From contig NZ_BIXY01000074.1 in NCBI RefSeq assembly GCF_008326305.1, forward strand, positions 1-35,924: a stretch of DNA of 35,924 bases, in the 5' to 3' direction. The translations under genes and the position numbers were made by a program. The stretch's first letter is position 1, and each line of letters starts with the position of its first letter. Positions 6,347-29,226 of the stretch are shown piece after piece. A model generated the notes under the pieces. It was given only the letters and a program-made list of their open reading frames with translations. It made no database searches and was not told the origin of the DNA. This DNA is from Dictyobacter arantiisoli. GTDB taxonomy: Bacteria > Chloroflexota > Ktedonobacteria > Ktedonobacterales > Ktedonobacteraceae.

Positions 6347-6889
6347 ATGAAAGACATGTTTCCTTTACCACATATTCCAGGTTATGTAGATATAAAAGAA
6401 GCTGCTAAAATACTGGGAGTTGCTGAAAGCAGTATTTATCGTTATGTGCAGTCTGGTCGTCTCTCTGGTTACCAAGCTGGTCATAATATCGTGATAGAAC
6501 TGGAATCTCTCAAACAGTTTAAGCCAAAAAATACTGGCCGTCCTCGTACCAATATCCCTCTTTGGCGTATTCCTCCTGATGAGAATTCTTTGTTGCAAAC
6601 ATCTATTTGTGCTCAGATACTGCAAGGTCAACAGGAAACTTTCAAACTACGGATGGAAGAGTTTAGGCTGAAAAAAGAGCACTTATTTCCAGGAACAGTA
6701 GCGAGATATATCTCAATCAGTAATAAACAACCAAATTTTGTAAAGATTACATTTATCTGGCGCATTTCAGTCATCCCCGAGGAAAATATCAGGAAGCAAT
6801 CACTAGACGCCTTTAAAGAGAGATTAGCAGATATTGTAGACTGGACGACTGCGCAATTTGATGAATATACCGTGTTTATATACGCATAG
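6347..6889 (+). CDS. Excisionase/MerR-type HTH protein with GRPR linker (copy A)
   Basis: A 180-residue putative DNA-binding protein. Residues 10-60 form a winged HTH_17/excisionase-type domain (VDIKEAAKILGVAESSIYRY then SGRLSGYQAGHNIVI). A GRPR sequence at about residue 64, resembling an AT-hook core, joins it to a C-terminal domain of about 110 residues containing FPGTVARYI and DIVDWTTAQF, which I do not recognise from any named family. It is a clear paralogue of the protein at 22127-22669; the two align over their whole length with the same GRPR linker, FPGT-AR motif and D-x-x-DW-TAQ-motif. No good Shine-Dalgarno is seen before the ATG at 6347. Repeated operator-like words lie just upstream. 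It stands on the opposite strand, at the far side of the restriction operon that the other copy heads. Confidence 0.85.
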   Translation: MKDMFPLPHIPGYVDIKEAAKILGVAESSIYRYVQSGRLSGYQAGHNIVIELESLKQFKPKNTGRPRTNIPLWRIPPDENSLLQTSICAQILQGQQETFKLRMEEFRLKKEHLFPGTVARYISISNKQPNFVKITFIWRISVIPEENIRKQSLDAFKERLADIVDWTTAQFDEYTVFIYA

Positions 6890-7987: not shown

Positions 7988-10900
7988 CTAATTTGGCAAG
8001 AGATTCAGAAAATCGGTTATGCCATGAAGTGCTAGAGTACTAATAAGGGACTTTGCTCGTCGTTGTGTCTCGTCTATTTTTTGTTGTAATGCATAAGTGA
8101 GTATATGGCGTACCGTTTTCTCCCAGGTTGATGTCGTCCACATCATAGTATCACCTTTGATAAGAAACTCCAGGCATATCAGTACCTGAGTGGGATATGG
8201 CTCAACAAGCTTTGCTAATCGCTCGACGACGGCGTAACTCAGCTCAACGTATCCTGCTAGTACAAGAGCCGCTTCAAGCTGATGCAATCCCCACTCATCA
8301 GGACAGATATCTGTTCGGAACCACCACCCAAAGGCTGCAAGCTCATGTGTATATTCTGTTATTGACGGTGCCTTTTGTGCTTCTGAAAGCCGCCAATTCC
8401 ATAATTGTTGAGACCGCTCAATAACCTCAGAAGGGATCGTTTCTCCTGTCTCATAGAAAACCCTACCAATAAAGGCAAGAATCTGTCCTCTCAAAACGTC
8501 CGATGCCTCCATAAAGAAGTGTGTTAGTAAACTCTCAGGAGAGTTGAGCGAAATTAATCCACTCCAATAAAATCGAATCAAATGCACACCAAGTCGATAA
8601 TCTGGGTTTTCTGTGATAGATCTGCTCTGTTTTGTGATACCCAGCCGCTCAATGGCGGTAGTATACTCCTCACGCAAGAGGGCTAGCACATTATTGTAGG
8701 GCTCGCAGAATATTATATAGGTATTCCACGTGACGACACGCAGTGTTTCTTGATCAACTTCTTGTGGAAAGAGATTCATCAGGTGATCAGCAATCCACTG
8801 TACATCAAGAGCAACGAGATTAGCGAGGCGCTGTGCATATACTGAGCGCACTGCTAGAGAAGCATCTATGTGGGTGTCGAGATGACGCTCGAGTACTGCT
8901 TGCACTTCAGGCATTGCTTTGAAGTTATGGAAGTCCTCTTCGCCCTCTTCATGTTTATCTTGGCGTTTCTGCCACAGCGCGTAGTTTACGACAGCGTGTA
9001 ACGCTATCCCCCGAATACTATTGATAGCACGAGTTGCGTATTCCATAGCAGAATCGTGGCCTTCTTCGTCAACTTCGTCTTCTTGGGCCGGGTCGGGATC
9101 ATCTGTGAGAGGCTTCATTATATCCCATATCTTAGCGCTAAGCGAAATAGGGATAATAGGAGACTGAGCTTCAGTAGCACCCAAAAGTAGATTCGCAACC
9201 ATTTGGCTGCTCCACGCCCATTGGGGATCGTAGATTATGGTCACGCCGTCTTCAGCAAGTGTATACCGCTGATTAATAACCCATTCGCACAGGTTTAAGA
9301 CATTCTCCCAATCAAAGGTGCGGCGGTTTCGTATTGCTTCGGTAAAGCCCTGTACAACTGCACTGATGTAAATGGGATTATATCCCTGAAATAGATTGGC
9401 CTGTTCAGCGAAAGGCTCTGGGTCTGTACTAATAATCCCTGTGAGCAGTCGTCCTAACTCCTCACGTGATGGGCTCATAAAATCTCCAGAAGGTTGCCAC
9501 TCTTGTAGGTAGGATAGTATTTGATCTATGCTCATAGAGCGTAACTCTTCTATCAAGGGTTCTCTAGCAGGACTTCCCCAGGTGATGATAGGAAAGTCTT
9601 CTTCAGGTTCGGTGGGACCTAACTCAGTCACCAGTGCATCATAGCGTTCTTTCCAATTGTCTTTCAGCCCATCTTCAATCTCTCTTAGCCAGTCACGTTG
9701 CCAAACACGTACATACTGCTGTACTAAATCATCGTCTGGTTGTTTATGATAGTACTTTTCATATTGTTCCTGATAGGATGGACAATCCGGGCCTGTTTCT
9801 ATCCACTCAAGCCATTGTTTCTGCTCTGTATCAGATAGTAGAGAGTAGCCTGTTTGAGCAAGCAGTCCATACTCATAACGTACATCGCTATCATCAAAGA
9901 GCGCTCGATCCATAAGGTAGAGTTTTACGGCCTCAAGACTGTCTTGGGGAATGCGGCTCAGTAAATAGAGGATAATACGTCGAAAAATGCGTCCAGGATG
10001 TTCCTCAAGAAGTGAGACAACAGTGTCTATTGGGATAATCTGTTCTTGTACCGCTTGCTCTGCTGCCTGCCATAAAGTTACAACTAATAGATTCAGTAAA
10101 TCGTGCATGCCTGGGAGAAATTTATTTCTAGCATTTCCAATTATATACTGCCAGGACTTTGTACTCGCTTCTTGTGCCTCTTTTTGTAGGCGCTCTTCAT
10201 CGCTTTCTTGTACATTTCTAAACCGAATATGGTTCTCATAAACTTCTACTTCTAGACGGTGGCAAAGCATCGCAAGGGTTTTAATTGCTGAATGTTTAAT
10301 AAGTAGAGGTGTATTTGTAGAAAGTATTTTCTCGTAATCCCAGCTCTCAGTGTATGACTCTCTATGCCTGAGGACAGCAAAGCAGCTTTCTGTCAAAGCA
10401 ATTGCTGTCTTGCTCTCCTTCCCTTGTGCGAGATGATTTATGAGATTGCTGATCTGCGTGAACTCAATGCTTTGTATCAGTTCAGCCTGTATCCACTTTT
10501 GGATAGTTGGAACAAGCTTTGCTGCTAGCGAGGCTGGAAATGTTTGGACAATCTGGAGAATAGTTCGTTGGACGAAAGGATTATCTGTATCAGAAACCTC
10601 TTGCATAATCGTGAGAATTGTTTGCTGAGTTGACTCAATTGATACAATACGAAGAAGGTATTGAGCTGGAGGCCAAAGTGAAAAAATAAATCTACCGAGT
10701 TCTTCATTCCATTCCTTTGATGGTGGAGGAGTAAAAAAACCTGTTTGATACAAGGGGTCCAACCAACCAGGGCTCTGGAGACGTTCAAAGAAGTAACGAT
10801 GAGTTGTATCGTTATGAGGTATTGTGTTTTTTAAATGTGATAAGTCTTTTTTGCTAGGGGCTTCCTTCAAAAGTAAGGTGTTGAGTAGGGCAAAAATATG

Positions 10901-11413
10901 TGTAGACTGCTTTTCGAATGCAGCAAGAATAGAAATGAAAACTTCTTCAAAGGTGTTTACAAGTAGTTGGAAGGACGAATCGATCTCTCGAGGATATGAT
11001 AAATCTTCTCTATGAGCCATTGCTGCCAGGCCATTAAAAGTTTTATTTCTTGTCGCTATCTCTTTCCACTTTTTCTGTATGCCTTTATCTAGCTTTAACG
11101 ATTGAGTAATTGCCTCGATCTGCTTTGCGTGAGTTTCTGGGCGGTTTTCACATACTTGGCAAGCATCTGGAGGTACATAATCATAAGGTAACAGTACGCG
11201 GCGAACAGAACTCTCAATTTCTCTTAGGAGGTGAGCTACAAGATGTGTTGTGCTTTCAAACCGCTGTGGCGGCGTTATCAAGCTACAAGCTTCTCTATAG
11301 AAGGTTGCTGGACCAGGTCCAAGTAGCTTGAGTTTTGTGTATAAGCTTTTTTGCTGTTGGGTTTGGAAACGAAATGGTTCTTTAAAGGGTTGATCAGTTG
11401 TGCTATATTCCAT
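7988..11413 (-). CDS. Very large protein of unknown function, last gene of the RM operon
   Basis: A 1141-residue protein that I do not recognise. It is almost entirely helical with no membrane segment, signal peptide, Walker A or nuclease motif that I can find. The first 200 residues include THLVAHLLREIESSVRRVLL and a short Cys pair (ACQVCENRP), then RNKTFNGLAAMAHRE, which has the look of a HEPN-like helical pair but is not a secure match. Residues 230-330 carry WLDPLYQTGFFTPPP. The rest resembles irregular HEAT/ARM-type helical repeats, ending with TYALQQKIDETQRRAKSL. I take the ATG at 11413, with AGAGG 7 bases upstream, over an upstream TTG at 11467 that would overlap the kinase-like gene by 14 bases and has no visible ribosome-binding site. 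It lies 40 bases after the pseudokinase gene. A scaffold or effector role is possible; nothing in the sequence decides it. Confidence 0.85.
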   Translation of the reverse strand: MEYSTTDQPFKEPFRFQTQQQKSLYTKLKLLGPGPATFYREACSLITPPQRFESTTHLVAHLLREIESSVRRVLLPYDYVPPDACQVCENRPETHAKQIEAITQSLKLDKGIQKKWKEIATRNKTFNGLAAMAHREDLSYPREIDSSFQLLVNTFEEVFISILAAFEKQSTHIFALLNTLLLKEAPSKKDLSHLKNTIPHNDTTHRYFFERLQSPGWLDPLYQTGFFTPPPSKEWNEELGRFIFSLWPPAQYLLRIVSIESTQQTILTIMQEVSDTDNPFVQRTILQIVQTFPASLAAKLVPTIQKWIQAELIQSIEFTQISNLINHLAQGKESKTAIALTESCFAVLRHRESYTESWDYEKILSTNTPLLIKHSAIKTLAMLCHRLEVEVYENHIRFRNVQESDEERLQKEAQEASTKSWQYIIGNARNKFLPGMHDLLNLLVVTLWQAAEQAVQEQIIPIDTVVSLLEEHPGRIFRRIILYLLSRIPQDSLEAVKLYLMDRALFDDSDVRYEYGLLAQTGYSLLSDTEQKQWLEWIETGPDCPSYQEQYEKYYHKQPDDDLVQQYVRVWQRDWLREIEDGLKDNWKERYDALVTELGPTEPEEDFPIITWGSPAREPLIEELRSMSIDQILSYLQEWQPSGDFMSPSREELGRLLTGIISTDPEPFAEQANLFQGYNPIYISAVVQGFTEAIRNRRTFDWENVLNLCEWVINQRYTLAEDGVTIIYDPQWAWSSQMVANLLLGATEAQSPIIPISLSAKIWDIMKPLTDDPDPAQEDEVDEEGHDSAMEYATRAINSIRGIALHAVVNYALWQKRQDKHEEGEEDFHNFKAMPEVQAVLERHLDTHIDASLAVRSVYAQRLANLVALDVQWIADHLMNLFPQEVDQETLRVVTWNTYIIFCEPYNNVLALLREEYTTAIERLGITKQSRSITENPDYRLGVHLIRFYWSGLISLNSPESLLTHFFMEASDVLRGQILAFIGRVFYETGETIPSEVIERSQQLWNWRLSEAQKAPSITEYTHELAAFGWWFRTDICPDEWGLHQLEAALVLAGYVELSYAVVERLAKLVEPYPTQVLICLEFLIKGDTMMWTTSTWEKTVRHILTYALQQKIDETQRRAKSLISTLALHGITDFLNLLPN

Positions 11414-11453
11414 ATAGTGACCTCTTCTAACTTCCCAATATGCTATGTTAATA

Positions 11454-12845
11454 TTAATGTTTGACAAGAGCTGTGATAAATGCTTCTACCCCATCATATC
11501 GTTGGTCTGGCTTGATAGATAGAGCTTTAAGCGTTGCATGCCCTATTTGAGCAGGAATTTTAGGATTGATTAATTGAGGTGCCGACAGAGGCTTTTTTTG
11601 ACGGTGAGTAGATGATGAGCTAAGAGGTTCTTTAAGTGGAGGGCGACCAGTGAAAAGTTCATAAGCGATACAAGCGAGAGCATATTGATCGCTCTTTTCA
11701 CTAGCAATACCTCTTGATTGCTCGGGAGCCATATAGTTTTCTGCTCCTATATGATTCGACTGCAAATGATGCTTTACTGCTCCAGCCTTAACTGCCAGAT
11801 CAAAACCTGTTAGCAATGCATTGCTAACATCATCAAACAGAATACTGGCTGGTTGGATACCACGATGAATAATGCTTTGTTGGTGAAGATACGCAAGAGC
11901 TCGCCCAATCTGAGAGATAATAGTAAGCGCTTCCGAAAGAGGTAAGGCATTTGGCCCATGGCGTCGAATACGATCAGAAAGGGCGCCTCCTGTTGCATAT
12001 GCCGTAACAATGTAAGGTAATATTCCATTCAGATGGATATCAATTATGGGTAAGATGGATGGGTGCTTGAGGCTGATTAGATCAGTGTTAAGTGAGAACA
12101 CGTCGTGATATAAACGCACACTCGCCGGTACGCTGATAACTTTAAGGACGACTAAGGTTGCTGTGCCCTCTATTTCAGCTAGATAAAGTGAGCCAAACGT
12201 TCCTGTTACGAGGTATTTCTGTATACGGTAAGATCCAATAAGTTGTCCAGGTAAGAGAGCTGAAACGTCACCTCTAAGGATCTGGACTTGTGCTTGTAGT
12301 GTCTCGTTGGCGAATTTTCTCATTCGCTCTTCGCTTGCTCGTATTTCTGCTATTACTGAGTCAGCCCCATCAAGTACGGTTAGAAGGATAGCTTTTTCCG
12401 CTGCATTAGTATGTTTATAGAGTACTTGTCGATAGCAAATAAGGAAGTTGGGTATGATTTGCTCTGGTTTTCCTCCCCGTCGTTCGAGCAATATTCTGGT
12501 AGTAGGCGTATTCGTGATATGTTTGGTTAAAGTTGACTCAATGATCTGTCTATCTTCAGGCTGGTGATCAAAAATATAATTGCCAATCTGCTGAGCTGTT
12601 GCTGGGTCCTGGAAAAAGCTAATTACTCCACTCAGATCATAGAAGGGATACTTCTCAAAGTAGAGCTGAAGTGTCTCTACTAAGATTTCCTTTAAATGAT
12701 CGTCTCGCGTTTTCTCAATCAATCCGATCTCTTTGAGTCCTTGTCCTACCAATGTTCCCTCAAGTCGTTGCGCATAGTGCTTAATAATATCAGTGGCTAG
12801 GTTTGTTGCTATACCTACTCCTATGCTCAAAGGATCGAGTCCCAT
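11454..12845 (-). CDS. Pseudokinase with N-terminal helical domain
   Basis: A 463-residue protein with a bacterial Ser/Thr-kinase-like fold at residues 200-460 and a helical N-terminal domain (1-190) reminiscent of helical domains in STAND/NACHT conflict proteins. The fold is clear: glycine-rich loop LVTGTFGSLYLAE (212-224), ATP-site lysine in VVLKVI (K235), IIHRGIQPASILFD (325-338), YMAPEQ (371-376) and SDQYALACIAYELFTGRPP (385-403). The catalytic centre is not: HRD reads HRG (G329), the catalytic-loop Lys and Asn are Gln and Ser, and DFG reads GFD (347-349). The alpha-C glutamate is also not seen. Phosphotransfer is therefore unlikely; nucleotide binding could remain. The start is ATG 12845 with AGAGGA 6 bases upstream. 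It lies 26 bases after the metallopeptidase gene and 40 before the giant gene, inside the type I RM operon. Confidence 0.9.
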   Translation of the reverse strand: MGLDPLSIGVGIATNLATDIIKHYAQRLEGTLVGQGLKEIGLIEKTRDDHLKEILVETLQLYFEKYPFYDLSGVISFFQDPATAQQIGNYIFDHQPEDRQIIESTLTKHITNTPTTRILLERRGGKPEQIIPNFLICYRQVLYKHTNAAEKAILLTVLDGADSVIAEIRASEERMRKFANETLQAQVQILRGDVSALLPGQLIGSYRIQKYLVTGTFGSLYLAEIEGTATLVVLKVISVPASVRLYHDVFSLNTDLISLKHPSILPIIDIHLNGILPYIVTAYATGGALSDRIRRHGPNALPLSEALTIISQIGRALAYLHQQSIIHRGIQPASILFDDVSNALLTGFDLAVKAGAVKHHLQSNHIGAENYMAPEQSRGIASEKSDQYALACIAYELFTGRPPLKEPLSSSSTHRQKKPLSAPQLINPKIPAQIGHATLKALSIKPDQRYDGVEAFITALVKH

Positions 12846-12871: not shown

Positions 12872-13594
12872 TTAGAACATACTACCTTTTTCAGCCAACC
12901 ATTGCTTACGCTCTTCGTAGTCAGGTATTGTTTGCTTCACACGTCGCCAAAATGCATTATTATGACGAGACTCATGCATGTGTGCAAGTTCATGGACTAC
13001 AATATAATCTATCATAAGAGGTGGAAGCTGCGCTATGCGCCAGTGGAAATTGAGTATACTATTGTGACCACATGATCCCCAACGATATCCCAAATCTCGT
13101 ACATGAATGCTTTCCGGCTTGACTCCGACGTGCTGGGCTAAGTCTGCTACTCTGTGTTCAAGCCACTTTAGTGCATGTGTACTGTACCAGGTGATGAAGT
13201 GTTCTTGTGCTTGGTCCCGTTCATTTTCACGCAAGAGGAACCACCCACCTGCAAAGGATAAGGGCGGTGTGTTAGTATCTAATTGGTCAGTTGGAAGTAA
13301 CTGTAAGCGATAATTATACCCCATGTAGAAGAAGCTCTCGCCTGTAAGAAACTCTTTTTTACGTGGTGGCCTGAAAAGCATTTCTTTCTTGGCAAGTCTC
13401 GTATAGATCCACCGGTATTTTTCTTCTGCTACGCGTTTGATATGCTCGTGAGTGCATTCTTGTGGTGCCGAGAGAATCAGTTCTCCTCTTCGGCCAATTG
13501 TAATGCCGATACTTGTACGTTTACTACTGCGGCGTAGTTCAAATGTCAAATCATGGATAATGAGTGTTTCACCCAGATTTTTTTTATCTATCAT
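12872..13594 (-). CDS. YgjP/SprT-like metallopeptidase (M48-type, DUF45)
   Basis: A 240-residue putative zinc metallopeptidase of the YgjP family. The zinc motif is VVHELAHMHESRHNNAFW: His201, Glu202 and His205 of HExxH, plus His211 as likely third ligand. The family hallmark RWGSCGHNSILNFHW lies at about 171-185, and the N-terminal half is the usual beta-rich domain (ITIGRRGELILSAP). Length and domain order match the family. YgjP-like proteins are often encoded next to hsdR in type I RM loci, where their role is not well defined; proteolytic control of the restriction complex is a common suggestion but is inference. The gene begins 16 bases after the hsdR stop, with only a weak ribosome-binding site (GGGTAGAAG), consistent with coupling to hsdR translation. 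Confidence 0.92.
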   Translation of the reverse strand: MIDKKNLGETLIIHDLTFELRRSSKRTSIGITIGRRGELILSAPQECTHEHIKRVAEEKYRWIYTRLAKKEMLFRPPRKKEFLTGESFFYMGYNYRLQLLPTDQLDTNTPPLSFAGGWFLLRENERDQAQEHFITWYSTHALKWLEHRVADLAQHVGVKPESIHVRDLGYRWGSCGHNSILNFHWRIAQLPPLMIDYIVVHELAHMHESRHNNAFWRRVKQTIPDYEERKQWLAEKGSMF

Positions 13595-13610: not shown

Positions 13611-16600
13611 CTATCTCATCAATCCCAATTCATCCAGTCGCTCTGCAAGTTCGAGAAGCTGATCTGCCACCTCTTTCTGCCGCCCTTCAGGGGTAATCAG
13701 GTCATTCTCGTCCAGAAAATCAATGATTCTAGCTAGTAGATTACGTCTTTCATTATGTCTACGCCAAAAATCTCTACGACGACTTGCACGTTCGCGAATC
13801 ATCTCGATCACTTTTATTGTAAATTCTGCAAGTTCCTTACGCTGATCTCGAGACAATTGTTCTTTAGCTTCCTCATTTTCACCTATTGCAATAGCAAAGT
13901 GTTCGCTCCCTTTGTTTACCTCTACATCTAAAATATCAAGGAAGGGAAGTTGTGTATTGGGGTCTAATCCTGTGAAATCGGTCTGTCGGCCTTTCCTTAA
14001 CTCCCAAATAAAAGGCAGCAATTGTTGGACTTGTTCGGTCCATTGCCCTTTAAGCTCTTCCAAAATAGCTTCTAGGCGCTTACTTAAGCGATCATAGTAG
14101 ACAGGATTCTCTTCGTAATGTTCCCGGATATAGTAACGTGCTAGATGCTCCATCTGTGAAGCTTTCGTTTCATCGGAAATGTGCTGGTCTATTCTATCCT
14201 CGAAGTCGGTATCAGTAATAGAAATAGGAGCTACTGTTTGTTCGATACCTAATACTGTAATATGCTCATCAATGAGCTTGCGTATCTTCTTTCCTGTCCC
14301 TTTAATATTGATTTGCTCTTCTGGAAAGATGTTTGCTGCACTTTTGTTTATATAACCTAAAACTTCTGCTAATTTGATATATTGTTGTGCCTCTGGCCTT
14401 GGTAAAACTGCATCCATACTCTCCAAAAATTTCTTGAGTTTTTCCTCAAAGTCGGCGCGAAATCTTGCATCTTTGAAGAGATTGAGGCAAATGTCTATCG
14501 TCTCTCGGTCATGTTTTAAGTTGATCGTACTGACATCAATGTTCTGCTCACTAAAAATTGCCTTTATACGTAGGGCTCGTGCTTCAAGTTTAAGAACCTC
14601 GTCCTTTATATTTCTAAGGGCTCCCCGCGTCTGCTCCGCGCTATAAACAATAAGTGCCTCTTTGAGCTGACGAGCAACACCAAGATAATCTACTACAATG
14701 CCATAAGTTTTATCTAGATATGTACGATTAACTCTGGCAACAGCTTGTAGTAAATTATGCCCTATGAGGCGACGATCAAGATAGAGTCCTTGAATCACTG
14801 GTGCATCGAAGCCAGTTAGTAACATCTGTTGTACACACAACAATGCTAAGTAATCCTGGTTTCTGCTTTCTTCCTCATTCTGTACTAATGGTAACTTAAA
14901 GCGCCTAATATAATTATTGCGATTATGAGTTGCGTTCCATTGTTGCCATGCAGGATCATCATCGGGTTCAGAAGAGATAACTGCTGCACAGTCTAGCTGA
15001 CGTAACAGTTCACGTTGCGAATAAGCCTGAAGTAACATTTGCTCACCCAGAGGAAGATTAGCACGTTCTTCTTGGCTCATTTCTAACCTTGAGGGTGGAA
15101 GTTGCTCAAGCGTTTCTAATAACTGTTCACGTGCCTTTACGATTGCCGCCTGGTAACGTACTGTGGCTGCACGTGAACTGGCGACAATCATGGCTTTGAA
15201 GTGGTTAGGTAAAATATTTGCAGCATAATGCAAAAGCATATGCCGCGCTTTTGCCTCGATGAGTTCTTGGGCCTCTAATACTTGTGTCTCATTTGCATAG
15301 TGATTGATGATGCGTAGCCGCACTTCATCAGGCATTGCCTGGGTGAGATAGAGATAAGCTTGATCAAGTTTTTGCCCTTGTACAACCATGCTATATGCTT
15401 GATAGCCTTCATAGAGAATAGGTATGGTTGCTCCATCTTGTTCCGATTCTAAAATGGTGTAAGTGTCAATGAAGTCACCAAAAATACGTGTGGTGAGTCG
15501 TTTGGTCCCTACCATAATAGGCGTGCCTGTAAAACCTATCTTGGCACTATTAGGCAACGCATTCATCGTATTGAGATGTAATTTGCTTGTATGAGAACGA
15601 TGAGCCTCATCGACAATAAGCAGAATGTTCGGTGACTTATCTGGTTGCTCTACCGTTAACGCGTCGTCTTCTTGCTCATCTTCACGCATCTTTTGGATCA
15701 TAACAAAGATGATTTTATCACTGGGTCGCTCTAATAGGCCCCTGGCACGGATAATGTTATCTGCGACCTCAATGCTTTCACCGGTAAGTCCCATAGTTCT
15801 TTCTAACTGATCTTGTAAATCTTGTCGATCAGTAATAATGACAATCTTAAATCTGCTTAGCCCCTGCAATTTGCGCATTTTGCGAATAAGAAAGACCATG
15901 GTCAAGCTCTTACCAGATCCTTGGGTGTGCCAGATGATACCACCTCGCTGATCGTCATGGTCTGCTGTTTTATGATCACCATGCCTCAGGAGATGAATAG
16001 CTTTTTGTACGGCCCTAAATTGCTGATAGCGAGCAATAATCTTTACTCTACGGCCACCATCAGTACGAAAAATGACGAAATTTTGCAACAGATCAAGTAA
16101 GTTCTCTTTACAGAGAGTACCCGAAACGAGGAGTTGCTGGCTGCTCAGATGTTCAGGGTTCTCAACATTTAGGTCTTGGGCAAGTTCTTGACGATTTTGT
16201 GGATATGGATCTTTCCATTGCTGATATTCTTGACTATCAGCTTCAATAGTTCCTAACTTTGCAGTATAGAAACAGGTAACAACTAGGAAGACATTGAAAT
16301 AAAATAAGGCTGGTCTTCCTGTATTGGGGCTAGCATAACGCTTAAGTTGTGTCACTCCAGCTTCAACTGGTTCAGTAACTGCTGGGTTTTTACATTCGAT
16401 CACTACTAACGGTATACCATTGACAAAAAGTACCAGATCAGGCACTATAAACGTGTTTTGACCGGGAAGTGCAACGTGGAACTGTGTCAATACGAGGAAT
16501 TCATTGTCATTGCTGTATGGTTGTTCCAGGTTAATAAAGTTTAAGTGGCGAGGCGTGCCTTCTAGATAATTTACAGTTCCACTTACATAAGTGCCATTTA

Positions 16601-17213
16601 ACAAAAGATTCCTTGCTTGTTCATTGGCTTCTAGCAAGCCTGCTCCTTGTATTCTTTCTAAATCTCTTATTGCTTCGTTGATTTGTTGTTCTGTGGGTAC
16701 TGGTTTGTCCTTGCTGGTGTTTAGTTGTCGAATAGCTTTTTTGAGGCGTTTTTTGAGGAGGACATCACTATACTTCTCGCGACCCTCAAATTCAAGTTGT
16801 GATGTTTCAGTGCCGGTCTTCTCCAGGTATATCCAGCCCAAAAATTTTAACTGCTCAATTAACCTTTGCTCTACATAAATGTGCTCTTTGGGCACATTGA
16901 AGCGCTCTTGGATACCTGCTGCAACACGAGCGTTTTGTTCCGTATCTATTGTTGCATCTTTTGAGCGTAGGAAAGAAAGGGCGATCTCTCCCTGATCGGT
17001 CAATACAAGTTCTGCCCCATCCTCTTGAAGAAAGCCCAGAACTTTGAGCCGATACAATAGATCGTCTAGCTCGTTCTCTGTAAATTCATACTCGCGCAAA
17101 AAGTCCTCTCGGCGTGTACAGAAGAGGGATTTGACTGTCCATAGTACAAACATTGCCTGCTCATCTGCGAGTATGTCAGCTAATTGCCATTCAAAAATAT
17201 CAGGATCTGTCAT
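13611..17213 (-). CDS. hsdR: Type I restriction endonuclease subunit HsdR, with extra N-terminal winged helix
   Basis: Motor and nuclease subunit of the type I RM enzyme (1200 residues). The nuclease domain has the PD-(D/E)xK set: D259 in FIVPDLVLF and E273-x-K275 in VVIECKNP. The superfamily 2 translocase follows with Walker A WHTQGSGKSLTM near residue 430, DEAH box LLIVDEAHRSH near 533 and motif III GFTGTP. The C-terminal 350 residues are helical, as expected for the HsdM/S contact region. Residues 5-85 precede the usual HsdR start and look like a winged helix (TENELDDLLYRLKVLGFLQE, then LVLTDQGEIALSFL), an uncommon addition. I place the start at ATG 17213, which overlaps the TGA of the upstream gene as ATGA, rather than at an in-frame codon 27 codons earlier. 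The enzyme would cut DNA lacking HsdM/S methylation after ATP-driven translocation. Confidence 0.97.
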   Translation of the reverse strand: MTDPDIFEWQLADILADEQAMFVLWTVKSLFCTRREDFLREYEFTENELDDLLYRLKVLGFLQEDGAELVLTDQGEIALSFLRSKDATIDTEQNARVAAGIQERFNVPKEHIYVEQRLIEQLKFLGWIYLEKTGTETSQLEFEGREKYSDVLLKKRLKKAIRQLNTSKDKPVPTEQQINEAIRDLERIQGAGLLEANEQARNLLLNGTYVSGTVNYLEGTPRHLNFINLEQPYSNDNEFLVLTQFHVALPGQNTFIVPDLVLFVNGIPLVVIECKNPAVTEPVEAGVTQLKRYASPNTGRPALFYFNVFLVVTCFYTAKLGTIEADSQEYQQWKDPYPQNRQELAQDLNVENPEHLSSQQLLVSGTLCKENLLDLLQNFVIFRTDGGRRVKIIARYQQFRAVQKAIHLLRHGDHKTADHDDQRGGIIWHTQGSGKSLTMVFLIRKMRKLQGLSRFKIVIITDRQDLQDQLERTMGLTGESIEVADNIIRARGLLERPSDKIIFVMIQKMREDEQEDDALTVEQPDKSPNILLIVDEAHRSHTSKLHLNTMNALPNSAKIGFTGTPIMVGTKRLTTRIFGDFIDTYTILESEQDGATIPILYEGYQAYSMVVQGQKLDQAYLYLTQAMPDEVRLRIINHYANETQVLEAQELIEAKARHMLLHYAANILPNHFKAMIVASSRAATVRYQAAIVKAREQLLETLEQLPPSRLEMSQEERANLPLGEQMLLQAYSQRELLRQLDCAAVISSEPDDDPAWQQWNATHNRNNYIRRFKLPLVQNEEESRNQDYLALLCVQQMLLTGFDAPVIQGLYLDRRLIGHNLLQAVARVNRTYLDKTYGIVVDYLGVARQLKEALIVYSAEQTRGALRNIKDEVLKLEARALRIKAIFSEQNIDVSTINLKHDRETIDICLNLFKDARFRADFEEKLKKFLESMDAVLPRPEAQQYIKLAEVLGYINKSAANIFPEEQINIKGTGKKIRKLIDEHITVLGIEQTVAPISITDTDFEDRIDQHISDETKASQMEHLARYYIREHYEENPVYYDRLSKRLEAILEELKGQWTEQVQQLLPFIWELRKGRQTDFTGLDPNTQLPFLDILDVEVNKGSEHFAIAIGENEEAKEQLSRDQRKELAEFTIKVIEMIRERASRRRDFWRRHNERRNLLARIIDFLDENDLITPEGRQKEVADQLLELAERLDELGLMR

Positions 17214-17827
17214 ACTATAGCACCACTGCGTTGCCAGGCAAATAGTCTCCGTCTTGCTTCGACACGTTTCACGGCTGCTGTTAGCACGTAACATCGCTCC
17301 AGGTCGGTATAGGTATAAAATTGAATTGCCCCATTGCCTCCTTGTATCATTGTAATCGCTGCGGTATAGGTAAAGTCTTTCTGAAAGCTTTCTGGTACCA
17401 TAACAAATGTTTTTGCCGCAATATCTCGACGGGTACAGATGCTAAGTTCAGTGATAACACCCATTGCACGGTCATCCAAAAGCAAGATCAGAAAGTCAGC
17501 ATTCTTGGCTTGGTGTAGTGCTTTTAGAAGAAGTCCTTCTCCAGTCTCTATAAGATCTTGAAGATCCTCTTCATCATCAAGCTCTTCGCTAAACACTGGA
17601 GCATGCCCTTTCTCTGCTAGAGCTTCTTTGATATCCCAACGTTTTTGTGCTGCTGGACTTTCTACATCTACTCCAGGTCCCCATACAACTACAGCTAAGG
17701 CAATTGCTTCAATATCATCACGTAGGCTCTGTTTATATTCAGTTTTAAAGCGCTGAAGTCTTTGTTGAGCAGCAGGAGATAATCCGGTGGATATAGTCTT
17801 AACGTGATGCTTCTTATCTTGCTCCAT
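17210..17827 (-). CDS. Small Rossmann protein, TIR/nucleoside deoxyribosyltransferase-like
   Basis: A 205-residue protein between hsdS and hsdR, translationally coupled to hsdR through an ATGA overlap. The pattern fits a Rossmann-like fold of the nucleoside-2-deoxyribosyltransferase/TIR/SLOG group. Strand one is ALAVVVWGPG (43-52). KRWDIKEALAEKGHAPVFSE follows, giving helix and strand two. NADFLILLLDDRAMGVITEL (109-128) has an acidic residue, E127, where deoxyribosyltransferases and TIR NADases keep their catalytic glutamate. AKTFVMVPESF follows as the next strand. The tail has conserved-looking AITMIQGGNG and ERCYVLTAAVKRVEARRRLF. I infer a nucleotide or NAD-related activity, or a nucleotide sensor; neither is proven. 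About 168 bases separate it from hsdS and include a possible promoter. It is not a standard type I RM subunit. Confidence 0.85.
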   Translation of the reverse strand: MEQDKKHHVKTISTGLSPAAQQRLQRFKTEYKQSLRDDIEAIALAVVVWGPGVDVESPAAQKRWDIKEALAEKGHAPVFSEELDDEEDLQDLIETGEGLLLKALHQAKNADFLILLLDDRAMGVITELSICTRRDIAAKTFVMVPESFQKDFTYTAAITMIQGGNGAIQFYTYTDLERCYVLTAAVKRVEARRRLFAWQRSGAIV

Positions 17828-17995: not shown

Positions 17996-19294
17996 TCAAC
18001 TGTTCTTTGTCTCTTGATTTTCTGCTACTCGTACTTTGCCCGTTAGTAGATCTTGCATTAAGCCGTTTTTGTAAAGCTTGAGTTTGTTGCGATGTACTTC
18101 TTCTGTGCGAATAAGTACATCAACAAGGGAACATTTATCCATGATTAAGACTTGTTCTTCAAGAGTTGGTCTAGCTATAACTAAGCTTGTAAGCAAGCTA
18201 GTATTTAATCCTAGCATTGTTGAACCAACTGCCTTCGCCCTTATTTGCACTTGACTGTAGTAATGCCGATATATGGCTGCGAGCCATCGACCGTCAATAA
18301 AGTCTTTCGGTGGTCTAACTAATAGGCAATCTGTACCACATATAGAACCAACATCTGATATGTCTATAAATGCACACCTATCTAGATCTCCTCGGCGGCC
18401 AAAGACAACGTCATTCAGCACAACAAAATGCCGCGATAGTTTCGAGGCTTTTATTGGTGTTATACGAGCTATCTGAGATGTATTAATACGTTCATTTTTA
18501 ATATTTTGAGGCATTATAACTGGCACCCCCTCAGTTACATACTCATGAGCATGTAGTTGGCTCCCAAAAGGTCCAGTTTGTATTAGTCCACCGTTTTTAA
18601 GTACAATATCGCCTAGCGTAGAGACATCCCATTCTTGAGGGACTTTTCCCACTACTGTATCTTTAAATAGCTCTGGATGAGTTCTAGGGTCACGCATCTT
18701 CCCTTTCTCATCGATTCCACAAGTAAGTAATTTCTGTAATAATCCTGTTCGTTGGAGTTTGAGCTTGTGGATAAGCTTTTCAGCGTGCTGGATTTGTTCA
18801 TCGACAGTGTCGAGAAGTGCACTGATTTGACATTGTACAGATGGCAAGGGCACGTTTATAGATAGCGAGAGTAGGTGTTTAAGGCTTAGACCTTTAACTG
18901 TAGAGCCAATAGAAAGTGCTTCAAGTTTTTGACGATGAATATGTATAAGATAAAAAAGATATTTAGGAAGTAATAAATCGTTTGTGTAGAGCGCTTTAAC
19001 GTCCTGATTTATTGCGATAGGATGGGTCGTAATGGCTACCCTACCGATAGCCATTCGTACACAGATTAGGAGAACTCCTGGGGGTATAAGTTTAGATGCA
19101 CTTTTTTTTAAACCTTCTGATGATATTCGTTCAGTGGTATCACCAATCACCTGAGTATCATCTTGAAAGTCTTTCACTGAGGCCCAAGGTATATTACCCT
19201 CCCAATAGCTTGTAACTTTTCTTGAGGGGGTACCTCCTCCGACTATGTGAGTAAGAAAGTCGCTCAACGGTCTTGTATTCCAGTCACTAATCAT
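17996..19294 (-). CDS. hsdS: Type I RM specificity subunit HsdS
   Basis: DNA-recognition subunit (432 residues) with two target recognition domains. TRD1 covers about residues 1-150, followed by a conserved helical spacer (LLDTVDEQIQHAEKLIHKLK) and the family-typical KMRDPRTHPELFKD / VGKVPQEWDVSTLGDI junction near 200-235. TRD2 covers about 235-390, followed by a second spacer that ends LMQDLLTGKVRV. The length is normal. The two TRDs would each bind one half of a split recognition site that cannot be predicted here. The start ATG overlaps the hsdM stop by 8 bases (ATGATTAG), with AGGAG just upstream, which indicates translational coupling. The window shows no additional hsdS genes or inverted TRD cassettes, so no sign of shuffling. 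Confidence 0.96.
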   Translation of the reverse strand: MISDWNTRPLSDFLTHIVGGGTPSRKVTSYWEGNIPWASVKDFQDDTQVIGDTTERISSEGLKKSASKLIPPGVLLICVRMAIGRVAITTHPIAINQDVKALYTNDLLLPKYLFYLIHIHRQKLEALSIGSTVKGLSLKHLLSLSINVPLPSVQCQISALLDTVDEQIQHAEKLIHKLKLQRTGLLQKLLTCGIDEKGKMRDPRTHPELFKDTVVGKVPQEWDVSTLGDIVLKNGGLIQTGPFGSQLHAHEYVTEGVPVIMPQNIKNERINTSQIARITPIKASKLSRHFVVLNDVVFGRRGDLDRCAFIDISDVGSICGTDCLLVRPPKDFIDGRWLAAIYRHYYSQVQIRAKAVGSTMLGLNTSLLTSLVIARPTLEEQVLIMDKCSLVDVLIRTEEVHRNKLKLYKNGLMQDLLTGKVRVAENQETKNS

Positions 19295-22058
19295 TGAGGT
19301 CTCCTAACTCTTTTAAAAGTTTTGCTAGTTTCTGCTCAGCCTTGTCTCGCTCTTTGCGGATATCTTGTAGCGTCACCTCATATTTATTCCACCAATTCTC
19401 TACAGAAGAGATAACTTGATAACGATGAGCTATCAAGTAACGTTCTAGCTCGCTTGCAAGATCGTCGTGAGCAATATTTAGAACTATGTCTTCGCATTGC
19501 TGAGGGGTTAAATTGGTGTGAGCATCCTCAATAGTTTGTACCAGATAGGTAATTTCTTTGATCTGACGTAGGCGTTTTTGTGCCACTGCGAGTTGAGCCT
19601 TAATCTGACGATAGGGTTCAAGTTTAGCATTTGATTCAGCAACTTCTTGGCTCAGTCTCTCAACTTCGTCTGTAAGTTGTTTGATTGGGTCTGGTTCGTT
19701 GGATGCAAAAAGCGGAAGTGTCTGAGCTTGCGTACTGTTTCCACTTTTTTTTCCTCGCGGTTTGGCATCCAGTAGTTGTTTTTCGGCATTTTTCAAAGCG
19801 GTGCGACTGGCTTTCAGACGTTCCTCTAGCTCTTTTGCATAGTTTTTTGATATGGTTTCGTTCTCTTCAACATTCTCAGACTCGTCAAAATATTCATCGT
19901 CCTCTTCGTCACTGATTTCGTTATCTTCACCACGCTCGAAATCCAATCGTTGCTGCTGTAGATCAGCAACCAATATTTCGGTCTGACTCAATTCGCGTAT
20001 ATAATCAGGTATCAAACGTTGTATAAATTTGTTAGAGAGCGCTTCTTCTCGCTTCTCTGTCTTATCTCGCTCATCTTCTTCGTCCGTTAACATCGAAGTG
20101 GTCGTTGCAACTTTACTCTCTATGAGTCCGGGAAAGCTTCGTGCTGGCTGTGGCGGTGGATCATTGGGGGAAACATCTGCAATCACTGTTTTAAGATCAT
20201 AAAGATTATCATACCACCAGCGAGCAATAATGCCTGCGATTTTGTAGGGGTCTAGGAGTCCGATGGGATCGAGAACGATATCAAAGGAAGTCATAAAGCT
20301 GGAACGTAGATCTTTTAGACTGCGTGCTTGAGGTAAATTCCGTAATTGCTGTTCATGTAACTGCCACCACTGACTAAAAGTGTCTTTCAGGAGTTGCTCT
20401 TTCGCTTGCACTGAAGGATATAATTCGATAAAAGGTTTGATCTCATAGAGCTCATGTAAAGTAGGTATAAAATCATAGTAATCTTTGTTGCGCTCAACAA
20501 AGATAGCTTGAATGGGTAGCCCATGAGCGGTTAACAGCGTTTCTTTCTCCGCCACTTCTGTTTTGGGAATACCTCCAAAAAGATGGGCATGTACGTCTTG
20601 AGGTTCTGGTGGTGGTATATTGTCGGCATAGCGTCGAATATTGAGATCGTAGTCATGCTCTTTTGCTATTACCTCTGTCGAGACTACATTAGCATATATA
20701 GCTCCTGTAGAGTCTGCCACTCTACAAAATTTTTCGTATGTATCAACAATTTTTTCGATATGCTCTGGCCTTAGGAAGTTCTGATTGGACCCAGATGCAT
20801 ATTCAGCATCAGCGTTGATAAAGAGAACCTTACCAGCTCGTTCGGGAGCATAGAGCTTCTTGCCATTCTTTGGCCGCATTACGAGAATACAGGCTGGGAT
20901 ACCTGTGCCAAAAAATAAATTGGGTGGTAAGCTAATTACTGCTTCTAGCACGTCATCTTGAATGAAGCCTTTGCGTATCTTCTTTACCGGACCACTGCGA
21001 AAGAGCACTGCATGAGGCATGACAGTTGCCATAATACCGTCTTGATACAGTACTGCAAGCATGTGCTGGGCAAACATCAAATCAGCTTGATCCTTTTCAT
21101 GGGTGTTACCGTAAATGAATCGTACCTCGGGTAATGCTAGATCTTTGCTGTTGTAATCCTGGCTGAAAGGTGGATTGCTAATTACCCGGTCGAAATGTTC
21201 TAGTTCGCCACCCCTGATGTGCGCTGGTTTTGTGAGGACATCATCATTTGCAATATCAGCGTCGAGAACGTTATGGAAGATCATATTCATTTTGCAGATA
21301 GCCCAGACTTTTCCGTTGCTATCCTGACCGAATAGACTCAGCGTTCGACCATCTCCGCCTTGTTCCTCGACATAGTCTTTAGACTGAATCAGCATTCCAC
21401 CTGAACCAACACAGGGATCGTAAATACGCATGCCCTCTCGTGGCTTAAGGAGGCGTACCAGTAAACGGACAACATCGCGTGGGGTATAAAACTCTCCGCC
21501 TTTCTTACCAGCAGAGTCTGCAAACTGACTGATTAGATACTCATAGGCTGCACCTAGTAAGTCTGGGGATTCGAAATCTTCTGTACGTAGAGAGTATCTC
21601 CCGAAACGACGTACTAGTGTACGTAACACATCATCTGAAAGTGTAGTTTTGCCTACCTGACGTGCGTAGTTGATATGCTTCAAAACACCCTCTAAAGTTG
21701 GATTATGATCTTCAATAGGATAGAGGGCTGTATTGAGTAGTTCTCCGACACCTGGTTTATGCAAGTTTTCCATGATATGGGTCCACTTGGATTCGTCAGG
21801 AACTATGAACACATCACTAAGGCGGCTGGGATCTTTAGCACGTCTTATTGCATCTTCCATAGGAAGAGGACGCTCTCGTAAGACTGTAAGTTTGCGAATT
21901 TGGCGGTGGTACGCTTCATCGAACTCATCTGAAACGCGTTTAAGGAAGAGCAAACCGAAGATATAGATATCATACTCTGAGGCATCCATTTTGCTACGCA
22001 GCACGTCAGCAGCACGATAAAGATGGCGTCCAAGCTGAGATAAAGTTAACTTACGCAT
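19287..22058 (-). CDS. hsdM: Type I RM DNA methyltransferase HsdM with long C-terminal extension
   Basis: Adenine-N6 methyltransferase subunit (923 residues, compared with roughly 500-550 for a typical HsdM). The N-terminal helical domain (1-130) is followed by the catalytic domain: GGEFYTPRDVVRLLVRLL (188-205), SAM motif I DPCVGSGGM (214-222) and catalytic NPPF (295-298). Residues beyond about 500 are extra. They include a helical region, a very acidic run (EDNEISDEEDDEYFDESE near 710) and two coiled-coil segments (ELEERLKASRTALKNAEKQL and ELERYL to the end). Such tails occur in some larger type I families and may bind HsdR or HsdS. No clear ribosome-binding site precedes the ATG at 22058; it follows the HTH gene by 68 bases on the same strand. 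Confidence 0.96.
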   Translation of the reverse strand: MRKLTLSQLGRHLYRAADVLRSKMDASEYDIYIFGLLFLKRVSDEFDEAYHRQIRKLTVLRERPLPMEDAIRRAKDPSRLSDVFIVPDESKWTHIMENLHKPGVGELLNTALYPIEDHNPTLEGVLKHINYARQVGKTTLSDDVLRTLVRRFGRYSLRTEDFESPDLLGAAYEYLISQFADSAGKKGGEFYTPRDVVRLLVRLLKPREGMRIYDPCVGSGGMLIQSKDYVEEQGGDGRTLSLFGQDSNGKVWAICKMNMIFHNVLDADIANDDVLTKPAHIRGGELEHFDRVISNPPFSQDYNSKDLALPEVRFIYGNTHEKDQADLMFAQHMLAVLYQDGIMATVMPHAVLFRSGPVKKIRKGFIQDDVLEAVISLPPNLFFGTGIPACILVMRPKNGKKLYAPERAGKVLFINADAEYASGSNQNFLRPEHIEKIVDTYEKFCRVADSTGAIYANVVSTEVIAKEHDYDLNIRRYADNIPPPEPQDVHAHLFGGIPKTEVAEKETLLTAHGLPIQAIFVERNKDYYDFIPTLHELYEIKPFIELYPSVQAKEQLLKDTFSQWWQLHEQQLRNLPQARSLKDLRSSFMTSFDIVLDPIGLLDPYKIAGIIARWWYDNLYDLKTVIADVSPNDPPPQPARSFPGLIESKVATTTSMLTDEEDERDKTEKREEALSNKFIQRLIPDYIRELSQTEILVADLQQQRLDFERGEDNEISDEEDDEYFDESENVEENETISKNYAKELEERLKASRTALKNAEKQLLDAKPRGKKSGNSTQAQTLPLFASNEPDPIKQLTDEVERLSQEVAESNAKLEPYRQIKAQLAVAQKRLRQIKEITYLVQTIEDAHTNLTPQQCEDIVLNIAHDDLASELERYLIAHRYQVISSVENWWNKYEVTLQDIRKERDKAEQKLAKLLKELGDLND

Positions 22059-22126: not shown

Positions 22127-22669
22127 TCAGGTATGCATAAGCACTTTGCTAATGTTATATTGAGCTGTATCCCAGTCAAGAACATCAGCTAAATCTTTCT
22201 GAAAAGCTTCTATCGCTTGTTTTCTTTCTCCTTCATTTGGCATCACTGAACTTTTCCAAATGAGCGAGATATCTATTTGTCCAGGTGTATTCTCACTCTC
22301 TGCAATAAAGCGAGCTATTGTCCCTGGAAAATTATGTTTGCCTCCTTGCCTTAAGTGCTCTAGCCTTTGCAGCAATGTGCTTTGTTGGCCTTCTCGCATT
22401 TGAACAACTATGGAGGTTATAAATTGTGTATTGTCTCTAGCGGATATGCGCCAGGAAGGAATGCTTTTACGCGGTCGTCCAGAGCTTTGCCTTTTAAAAT
22501 TTTTGACTTCTTCTAATGGAATCATGATGACATCGGCTGCCCACATACTAGAAAGGCGGCCCTCGTCAACGTATTCATAAACTCTTTTGTCTGAAATACC
22601 CAGAATCTGAGCTGCTTCCTTGATGGAAACATAGTTAGGTAAGTTTGGGCGACTGGCGTATTCGTTCAT
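22127..22669 (-). CDS. Excisionase/MerR-type HTH protein with GRPR linker (copy B), first gene of the RM operon
   Basis: A 180-residue paralogue of the protein at 6347-6889. The HTH_17-like domain spans about residues 10-60 (VSIKEAAQILGISDKRVYEY, DEGRLSSMWAADVIMIPLEE), the linker GRPRKSIPSWR begins near 70, and the C-terminal domain has FPGTIARFI and DVLDWDTAQY. It lies 68 bases upstream of hsdM and co-directional, so it is the likely promoter-proximal gene of the restriction operon. A role as a controller-type regulator that times methylation before restriction is inference; the fold also fits a DNA-architectural or excision factor. An AGGGGA lies about 16 bases before the ATG, too far for a good start. 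The TGATAAAAGAA words found before copy A are not present here. Confidence 0.85.
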   Translation of the reverse strand: MNEYASRPNLPNYVSIKEAAQILGISDKRVYEYVDEGRLSSMWAADVIMIPLEEVKNFKRQSSGRPRKSIPSWRISARDNTQFITSIVVQMREGQQSTLLQRLEHLRQGGKHNFPGTIARFIAESENTPGQIDISLIWKSSVMPNEGERKQAIEAFQKDLADVLDWDTAQYNISKVLMHT

Positions 22670-24619: not shown

Positions 24620-25720
24620 TTGAATCCTGTTGTGACCGTAACACAGAAGCAGCTTTATGATTTGCTCTTGAATGTAGCCATTGCACGCCCGGTGTTTATA
24701 TGGGGACAACCAGGCATTGGTAAGTCGGCGTTGGTACAGGAGTTTGCGGCGCAGGTTGGTCTGCCCTGCGTCTCGCTGTTGGGAAGTCAGTTGGCGCCAG
24801 AGGACCTGATCGGTGTGCCGCAGATTATCGATGGTACCAGCCGTTTTTGTCCGCCACGCATGATTGCACGTGCCGAGCCATATTGTCTTTTTCTGGACGA
24901 GTTAAATGCCTGTACACACGAGGTGCAGAAGGCTTTTTATAGCCTGATTCACGAGCGCAGAATCGGTGAATATGCGCTACCGGCTGGTTCAATCGTCATC
25001 GGAGCTGGCAATCGTGCCCAGGATAGCGCGATTGTTAAGCCAATGTCGTCGGCGTTGTTGAATCGTATGGTACATGTTCATTTGAAGGTCTCACACCGTG
25101 ATTGGTTGGAGTGGGCGCGGGAGAGCGACATTCATCCGCTGGTAATCGAGTATATTCAGAATCGGCCGGATCATCTGTGGAGCGCGCCGCCTAAACACGA
25201 GGAGCCCTTCTCATCGCCGCGCTCCTGGCATATGTTGAGCGATTTGCTAAAAGAATATGGTAAAGGCATGCCATCCGATGAGACGTTACTGGTGCTGGCC
25301 TATGGGACGCTCTCGTCGCATCATGCCGGACAGTTCAAGGCCTTTATCAAGCAGATCCATAGCAAATATCAGTTGACGGCGCTTCTGAAAGGTGACGAGA
25401 GCTGGCCCTATAAACCGGAGGATCGAGATGTGCTCTACTTCCTCTCACAGTCATTTCGGGCCCATTTGCTCAAGAATTTGCCACAGGATAAAGGGATGGT
25501 TACGGGTAACCATAAAGAACTATCTTATCGAGCCAAGGCGCTGCTGAAAGAGTTGGCAGCCATCAATCTGGAGATGGCGCAGATGGTAGTGGCCAAGCAT
25601 GAGGATGGGGAAAATGGCGAGGGCAGCGAAGGCTTGCCCGGCTGGTTCATGATTGAAGTCATCCGTGATTTACCACGCATCGTAGATAAGCAAGAGCGTG
25701 AGGCCTTGAGAAGCAAATAA
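24620..25720 (+). CDS. MoxR-type AAA+ ATPase
   Basis: A 366-residue MoxR-family AAA+ ATPase, a chaperone-like motor that remodels protein complexes, often with a VWA partner. Walker A GQPGIGKSAL is at about 29-38, LAPEDLIGVPQI gives the family's loop, Walker B CLFLDELNA lies near 90 and sensor 1 is GAGNRAQDSA near 130. The helical lid spans about residues 170-250. The C-terminal 100 residues include KALLKELAAINLEMAQMVVA and an acidic linker (HEDGENGEGSEG). Translation probably begins at TTG 24620, with AGAGG about 8 bases upstream; no ATG fits. The DUF2201/VWA gene follows after 13 bases, a conserved pairing for this family. Codon use is more GC-rich than in the neighbouring AT-rich regions. 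Confidence 0.93.
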   Translation: MNPVVTVTQKQLYDLLLNVAIARPVFIWGQPGIGKSALVQEFAAQVGLPCVSLLGSQLAPEDLIGVPQIIDGTSRFCPPRMIARAEPYCLFLDELNACTHEVQKAFYSLIHERRIGEYALPAGSIVIGAGNRAQDSAIVKPMSSALLNRMVHVHLKVSHRDWLEWARESDIHPLVIEYIQNRPDHLWSAPPKHEEPFSSPRSWHMLSDLLKEYGKGMPSDETLLVLAYGTLSSHHAGQFKAFIKQIHSKYQLTALLKGDESWPYKPEDRDVLYFLSQSFRAHLLKNLPQDKGMVTGNHKELSYRAKALLKELAAINLEMAQMVVAKHEDGENGEGSEGLPGWFMIEVIRDLPRIVDKQEREALRSK

Positions 25721-25733
25721 GAGGTAGTGCATA

Positions 25734-29087: not shown

Positions 29088-29226
29088 AGCTGCTGCTCCT
29101 TCATTCGTCATCAGGAAGAATGAAGCGCTTCTTATGGCTTCTTCTCTTCCATTGCAACCAATTCTTACTTACTAAGATTGCAAAGCTTGGTTCCTCAATC
29201 TCCATTTTCCTGGCTCAGCATAGATG

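Follow-up and report, generated by a model that had tools for sequence, protein, structure and literature searches.

A pseudokinase encoded between type I restriction-modification genes and a DSR1-like protein in Dictyobacter arantiisoli

Bacterial pseudokinases are widespread, and almost none of them has a known function. By definition, a pseudokinase has lost at least one of the β3 lysine, the aspartate of the HRD motif and the aspartate of the DFG motif, and a recent review distinguishes seven bacterial families (PMC12599244). Inactive effector domains have, moreover, been proposed as decoys in nucleoside triphosphate-dependent conflict systems (PMC7159879), and a precedent from plant immunity is given by the pseudokinase ZED1 with the NLR ZAR1 (PMC6634424). 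It is with these systems that pk, a gene of the soil bacterium Dictyobacter arantiisoli, is compared here. The gene lies on the reverse strand of contig NZ_BIXY01000074.1 (assembly GCF_008326305.1), which is number 74 among the contigs of the 7.2-Mb genome and whose 35,924 nucleotides form the window of the analysis; its neighbours are a type I restriction-modification set and sn, a gene for a DSR1-like protein. In the reading preferred here, for which the chances seem evenly balanced, pk would be a non-catalytic binding adaptor or scaffold in a defence operon, derived from an intact Ser/Thr kinase.

Catalytic residues and origin of the kinase domain

The protein belongs to the protein kinase superfamily, the Pfam Pkinase model (PF00069) matching residues 208-417 well above its curated cut-off (E=2.5e-27; 96.4 bits vs 31.7), and the neighbours of its kinase domain in the PDB are PknB and relatives. 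In the residue register, taken from an alignment with 58 kinases, the catalytic Asp of HRD is replaced by G329 and the DFG triplet by G347-F348-D349, both of which were also read from the codons, and N253 stands at the position of the αC Glu. The β3 lysine (K235, VVLK for VAIK) and the APE Glu (E375) are kept. On all of these points, as on the unbroken frame, the first-pass annotation of the sequence was right; its description of the Gly loop as intact is true of two glycines but not of the first in GxGxxG, which is V213. Also retained are the HR of HRD, the αF Asp (D386) and the αI Arg (R449). What the annotation had not recorded is that the Lys of the catalytic loop and the Asn that binds metal have been lost as well, their places being taken by Q331 and S334; the loop reads HRGIQPAS and the DFG site TGFD. 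The GFD triplet is best read as DFG with D-to-G and G-to-D changes in place, a displaced or shifted motif being ruled out by the gap-free alignment there. With both the HRD Asp and the DFG Asp gone, pk is, as judged from its sequence, a true pseudokinase, in which the catalytic machinery is lost and the fold kept. Mg-dependent binding of ATP is unlikely, and Mg-independent binding of a nucleotide through K235 would be possible.

None of the seven reviewed bacterial families that could be tested is matched by pk. A resemblance exists to DLHK, of which the example tabulated in the review, a Pseudomonas aeruginosa protein, has the motifs HRDLRPAS and GFG (PMC12599244), and which likewise has no transmembrane region. 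In DLHK, however, the β3 Lys is lost and the HRD Asp kept, which is the reverse of what is found in pk, and the assignment was rejected on this ground. ActPs2, with β3 Lys changed to Arg, HRD Asp to Asn and a deletion at DFG, does not describe a protein in which the Lys is kept, the substituent is Gly rather than Asn and nothing is deleted. Equally, CP1 is linked to a COG3899 ATPase and pk has no other Pfam domain; the MADS kinase MAD6 was discarded at 120 bits against a cut-off of 460 (NCBIfam NF047741), as was the PD-T4-6 defence kinase, whose PADLOC match (3.3e-44) covers only the kinase domain of a protein without the catalytic residues.

In the 47 genomes searched from the class, the closest relatives of pk share 37-44% identity with it over the kinase domain, with all matches starting near residue 200. 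They are PknB-like Ser/Thr kinases of the Ktedonobacteria (HRDLKPENILF...ALLADFG...YMAPEQF...SDQYALACIA), with which pk has its fold in common, and in a careful tree it is nested within a clade of 32 of them with support of 96/94. A quick tree of 97 rows gives the same placement, which holds for the clade as a whole rather than for any one sister of pk; the end branch of pk is long (1.9 vs a median of 0.32). The clade kinases carry their kinase domain near the N-terminus, followed by a long C-terminal part, and none has the N-terminal domain of pk. In contrast, the polypeptide of pk ends right after the kinase domain and begins with a different domain. On this sequence evidence, pk is most aptly regarded as a private offshoot of the Ktedonobacterial clade.

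Of the alignment columns with at least 90% conservation among the 32 nearest kinases, 6 of the 7 catalytic ones are altered in pk, compared with 12 of the remaining 69 (Fisher p=5e-4), the catalytic set having been named beforehand from knowledge of kinases and the G-loop columns either having failed the 90% filter or not having been counted as catalytic. Since all 32 of these kinases, unlike pk, retain every conserved catalytic residue tested, and since none loses any when each is left out in turn, chance is ruled out for the changes in pk. The reading frame, moreover, runs from its ATG across 463 residues with zero internal stops, where neutral drift, even at only 0.1 per site, would be expected to produce about 5. 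The ATG is preceded by a purine-rich ribosome-binding stretch, AAGAGGAAA, and the mean codon preference (0.049) is like that of the neighbouring genes, random synonymous recoding giving -0.043 and at best, in 200 trials, -0.012.

The N-terminal domain and the Avs2 lead

The first 195 residues form an orphan domain, mostly helical in a low-confidence single-sequence model. No credible relatives of it were found in the class (47 genomes), the phylum (400 genomes), plasmids, viral contigs or a species-wide peptide scan, nor in phages searched with the first 133 residues. A weak match at locus L052 turned out on follow-up to be noise, and STEEP1, the sole Pfam match at E≤10, was rejected (E=0.21). 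A lead is offered by the phage sensor Avs2. In a phmmer search of the PDB, residues 5-117 align with 3-107 of 9o4e (Avs2) at E=0.1, and with the Avs2 segment as query pk is the top match in its own genome, over the full length, at E=0.005. An Avs2 profile, built on near-identical copies (effective number of sequences 1.8), gives pk 11.8 bits, where the highest-scoring of 2000 shuffles reaches 6.2; the hhalign probability is 75.5. A relationship between this N-terminus and the start of Avs2 is plausible, not shown. The first-pass annotation had called the N-terminus STAND-like; of this, the weak collinear match to Avs2 is what remains, Pfam finding no P-loop family in pk and hence no STAND NTPase.

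The operon and the family of sn

The genes on the strand of pk run, in order, from a helix-turn-helix (HTH) gene through hsdM, hsdS, a 205-residue orphan, hsdR and a YgjP-like metallopeptidase to pk and then sn (Table 1), with 26 bases between the metallopeptidase and pk and 40 between pk and sn. The latter gap follows from setting the start of sn at the ATG at 11413 on the evidence of a 57% identical homologue, rather than from the mechanically called frame (7988-11467), which would overlap pk.

Table 1. Positions of the features of pk and its neighbours in the window
Feature	Position	Strand	Basis
pk, pseudokinase gene	11454..12845	(-)	463-residue intact open reading frame, ribosome-binding site, codon use, Pfam Pkinase 2.5e-27
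N-terminal domain of pk, residues 1-195, orphan	12261..12845	(-)	Homology searches empty; mostly helical in low-confidence model
Residues 4-118, weak collinear similarity to Avs2 start	12492..12836	(-)	phmmer, reciprocal search, profile scores
Pseudokinase domain, residues 198-460	11466..12254	(-)	Pfam and alignments
K235, β3 (VAIK) lysine, retained as VVLK	12141..12143	(-)	Alignment
N253, replacing αC Glu	12087..12089	(-)	Alignment
G329, replacing HRD catalytic Asp	11859..11861	(-)	Alignment and codon read
Q331 (catalytic-loop Lys gone) to S334 (metal-binding Asn gone)	11844..11855	(-)	Alignment
G347-F348-D349, replacing DFG	11799..11807	(-)	Alignment and codons read
sn, 1141 residues, DSR1-like HEAT solenoid, separate N-terminal domain, no SIR2	7988..11413	(-)	PADLOC Dsr1 7.7e-46, family alignments, AlphaFold2
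YgjP-like metallopeptidase, 26 bases upstream of pk	12872..13594	(-)	Pfam PF01863 1.2e-54
Type I restriction subunit R (HsdR)	13611..17294	(-)	Pfam HSDR_N and SWI2_SNF2
205-residue frame between hsdS and hsdR, overlapping hsdR start by 85 bases	17210-17827	(-)	No family match
Type I specificity subunit (HsdS)	17996..19294	(-)	Pfam Methylase_S
Type I methyltransferase (HsdM)	19287..22058	(-)	Pfam N6_Mtase 4.3e-93

The product of sn has in common with DSR1 the HEAT-like C-terminal region. The PADLOC Dsr1 model covers about 900 residues of it, beginning at profile position 303, and an AlphaFold2 model (mean predicted local distance difference test, pLDDT, 81.8) is an α-solenoid for which Foldseek returns HEAT proteins. 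Unlike DSR1, sn has a different N-terminal domain and, by Pfam, no match to the SIR2 NADase domain. In other words, because the Dsr1 model matches sn without any SIR2 domain being present, model hits alone would misname the family as DSR1. Its members (the window at 7988-11413 and loci L066-L081) are of about 1100 residues and have an N-terminal domain of their own with invariant H61, R64, E65, E67, R71 and A133-H134-R135. Relatives occur in Gammaproteobacteria, Acidobacteriota, Acetothermia, Actinobacteria and others, and Pfam-verified type I restriction-modification genes lie upstream of the relative in L067, L069, L078 and L079. The association of the family with type I restriction genes is thus seen in several phyla, each time in the absence of the pseudokinase, and the family is possibly an undescribed restriction-associated defence gene. 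In other Chloroflexota (L056, L059, L060, L061, L064 and L065) the N-terminal and solenoid parts are two adjacent genes, of about 235 and 950 residues, which suggests that sn in the window is the fused form of a two-gene system. Elsewhere, DSR1-type solenoids are fused to DUF4062 and an NTPase, to TIR, and, in haloarchaea, to a STAND-like NTPase (L058:3347-7789; L062:5091-8405; L036:4129-8580), and such a solenoid is proposed to be a modular sensor common to NADase-type effectors. The closest homologue of sn, the 57% identical one, at contig G022:C82 (L037, L066), is split by a frame break and adjoins transposase genes. A conserved pairing of pk with sn was rejected, since in the inspected loci the sn relatives have no kinase neighbour, this nearest one, with its broken frame, included.

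Further out in the window, the operon is flanked by a pair of 180-residue HTH_17 paralogues with 45% identity, which are oppositely oriented, at 6347-6889 (+) and 22127-22669 (-); in connection with these, DNA repeats of at least 25 bases were looked for and none was found. A MoxR-like AAA ATPase and, after it, a DUF2201 metallopeptidase/vWA-like protein are encoded at 24620-27551 (+), and a pentapeptide-repeat protein with a weak TIR match at 27738-29111 (-).

What a dead kinase in this operon may do

The loss of catalysis has to be seen against the genome. The HRD Asp is missing from about 16 of its roughly 70 kinase-like domains, or some 1 in 5. The figures rest on search hits (72 kinase hits; L001-L030, L113-L152) and are approximate, since individual columns may be wrongly aligned in distant domains. 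These dead kinases are spread over several branches of the tree, of which the strongly supported ones force at least 5 changes. The triplet x-G-F stands for DFG in at least 5 domains: pk (TGFD), the second domain of L015 (TGFQ), L025 (AGFG), L027 (TGFA) and L141 (AGFG). The last four share with pk both the loss of the HRD Asp and the change of the DFG Asp to Gly, but arose on other branches, and three of the four are also without the β3 Lys. L015 is a single reading frame in which a kinase with HQD and DFG is followed by the dead domain with HYA and TGFQ. A dead kinase alone is, therefore, unremarkable in a genome where such proteins are frequent.

What speaks for an adaptor or scaffold is the combination of features: the catalytic-specific loss, the nesting in an intact clade, the open frame, the close same-strand spacing, the type I restriction-modification and DSR1-like neighbours, and the weak match to Avs2. 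This reading is preferred because the neighbouring sn is a solenoid of a kind that binds proteins and because a kinase fold has been preserved without its chemistry. The sequence shows that pk descends from a Ser/Thr kinase of the Ktedonobacteria, with relatives that are still catalytically intact, and that in pk the fold has survived the loss of the catalytic base, of the two Mg ligands, of the Lys in the catalytic loop and of the salt bridge between Lys and Glu. The kinase domain was joined to a mostly helical N-terminal domain, and the gene now lies between the type I restriction-modification set and the HEAT-repeat DSR1-like protein. There it would work without phosphotransfer, the kinase fold serving as a docking surface, and the N-terminal domain may mediate assembly with itself or with a neighbouring protein. 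Several observations weigh against such a role. Neither pk, nor its N-terminus, nor any other kinase match was found beside sn in the inspected sn loci of many phyla, from which it follows that the addition of pk is peculiar to this operon. No orthologue of pk was found in the searches made, so that conservation of the dead state is not demonstrated; the single-sequence structure model of pk is poor (pLDDT 38), and the Avs2 match lies below significance.

Of the other explanations, a regulatory role of the ordinary kind, such as the binding of one of the many active kinases of the cell or of their substrates, with pk brought into the operon by gene shuffling, is somewhat unlikely. It draws on the frequency of dead kinases, which would place them in general signalling in this organism, and on the unconserved pk-sn neighbourhood, but it sits poorly with the close spacing and common orientation of pk and the defence genes and with an architecture, new at the N-terminus and ending after the kinase domain, that differs from that of the nearest intact kinases. 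By analogy, pk might instead be a decoy or bait that mimics host kinases attacked by phage proteins and signals when bound or modified, which seems quite unlikely. The nearest kinases are indeed intact and abundant in the same genome, there is the weak link of the N-terminus to a phage sensor, and an inactive kinase that has active paralogues in the same cell and stands in a defence context resembles the decoys of conflict systems; those, however, have vWA-MoxR, GTPase or STAND cores (PMC7159879), none of which adjoins pk, and there is neither conservation to support co-evolution with sn nor a direct sign of sensing. More doubtful still is the specific idea of a bacterial counterpart of the plant decoy pseudokinases, in which a dead kinase with an Avs2-type N-terminus would detect phage proteins acting on host kinases. 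Proteins of this general defence class, Swarozyc (DUF4062) (PMC13174449) and DSR2 (PMC10981675), sense phage structural proteins, and nothing ties pk to sensing of that kind.

Altered chemistry, as appears to be the case in the pseudokinases SelO (AMPylation) and SidJ (glutamylation), would be compatible with the retention of K235 and two loop glycines and with D349 near the active site, but it is made highly improbable by the simultaneous loss of the catalytic base together with the αC Glu and both Mg ligands. A recently inactivated, decaying gene is no easier to credit. It was the outcome that the first-pass annotation had set against its own proposal of a kept non-catalytic role, to be recognised by homologues with normal HRD and DFG, and in part its prediction holds, in that the near homologues all have these motifs and pk alone carries the changes. 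The pattern, however, is unlike recent decay, APE, the αF Asp and the αI Arg all being kept. Because the changes cluster at catalytic positions and spare structural ones, because no stop interrupts the frame despite the long branch, and because the ribosome-binding site and the choice of codons are normal, a retained non-catalytic protein is likelier than a decaying kinase, and the sequence favours retention of pk in folded form. The kept non-catalytic role proposed in the annotation is thus supported in part, and the sensor or allosteric switch that it gave as examples may be among the forms such a role could take. The finding is also less special than was implied, dead kinases being common in the genome.

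The finding is limited in that pk is one of a kind, in a genome where dead kinases abound. Even so, with its whole catalytic set lost, an intact group for comparison and a measurable phenotype of its operon, namely phage resistance, pk offers a direct test of whether dead kinases are used in bacterial immunity.
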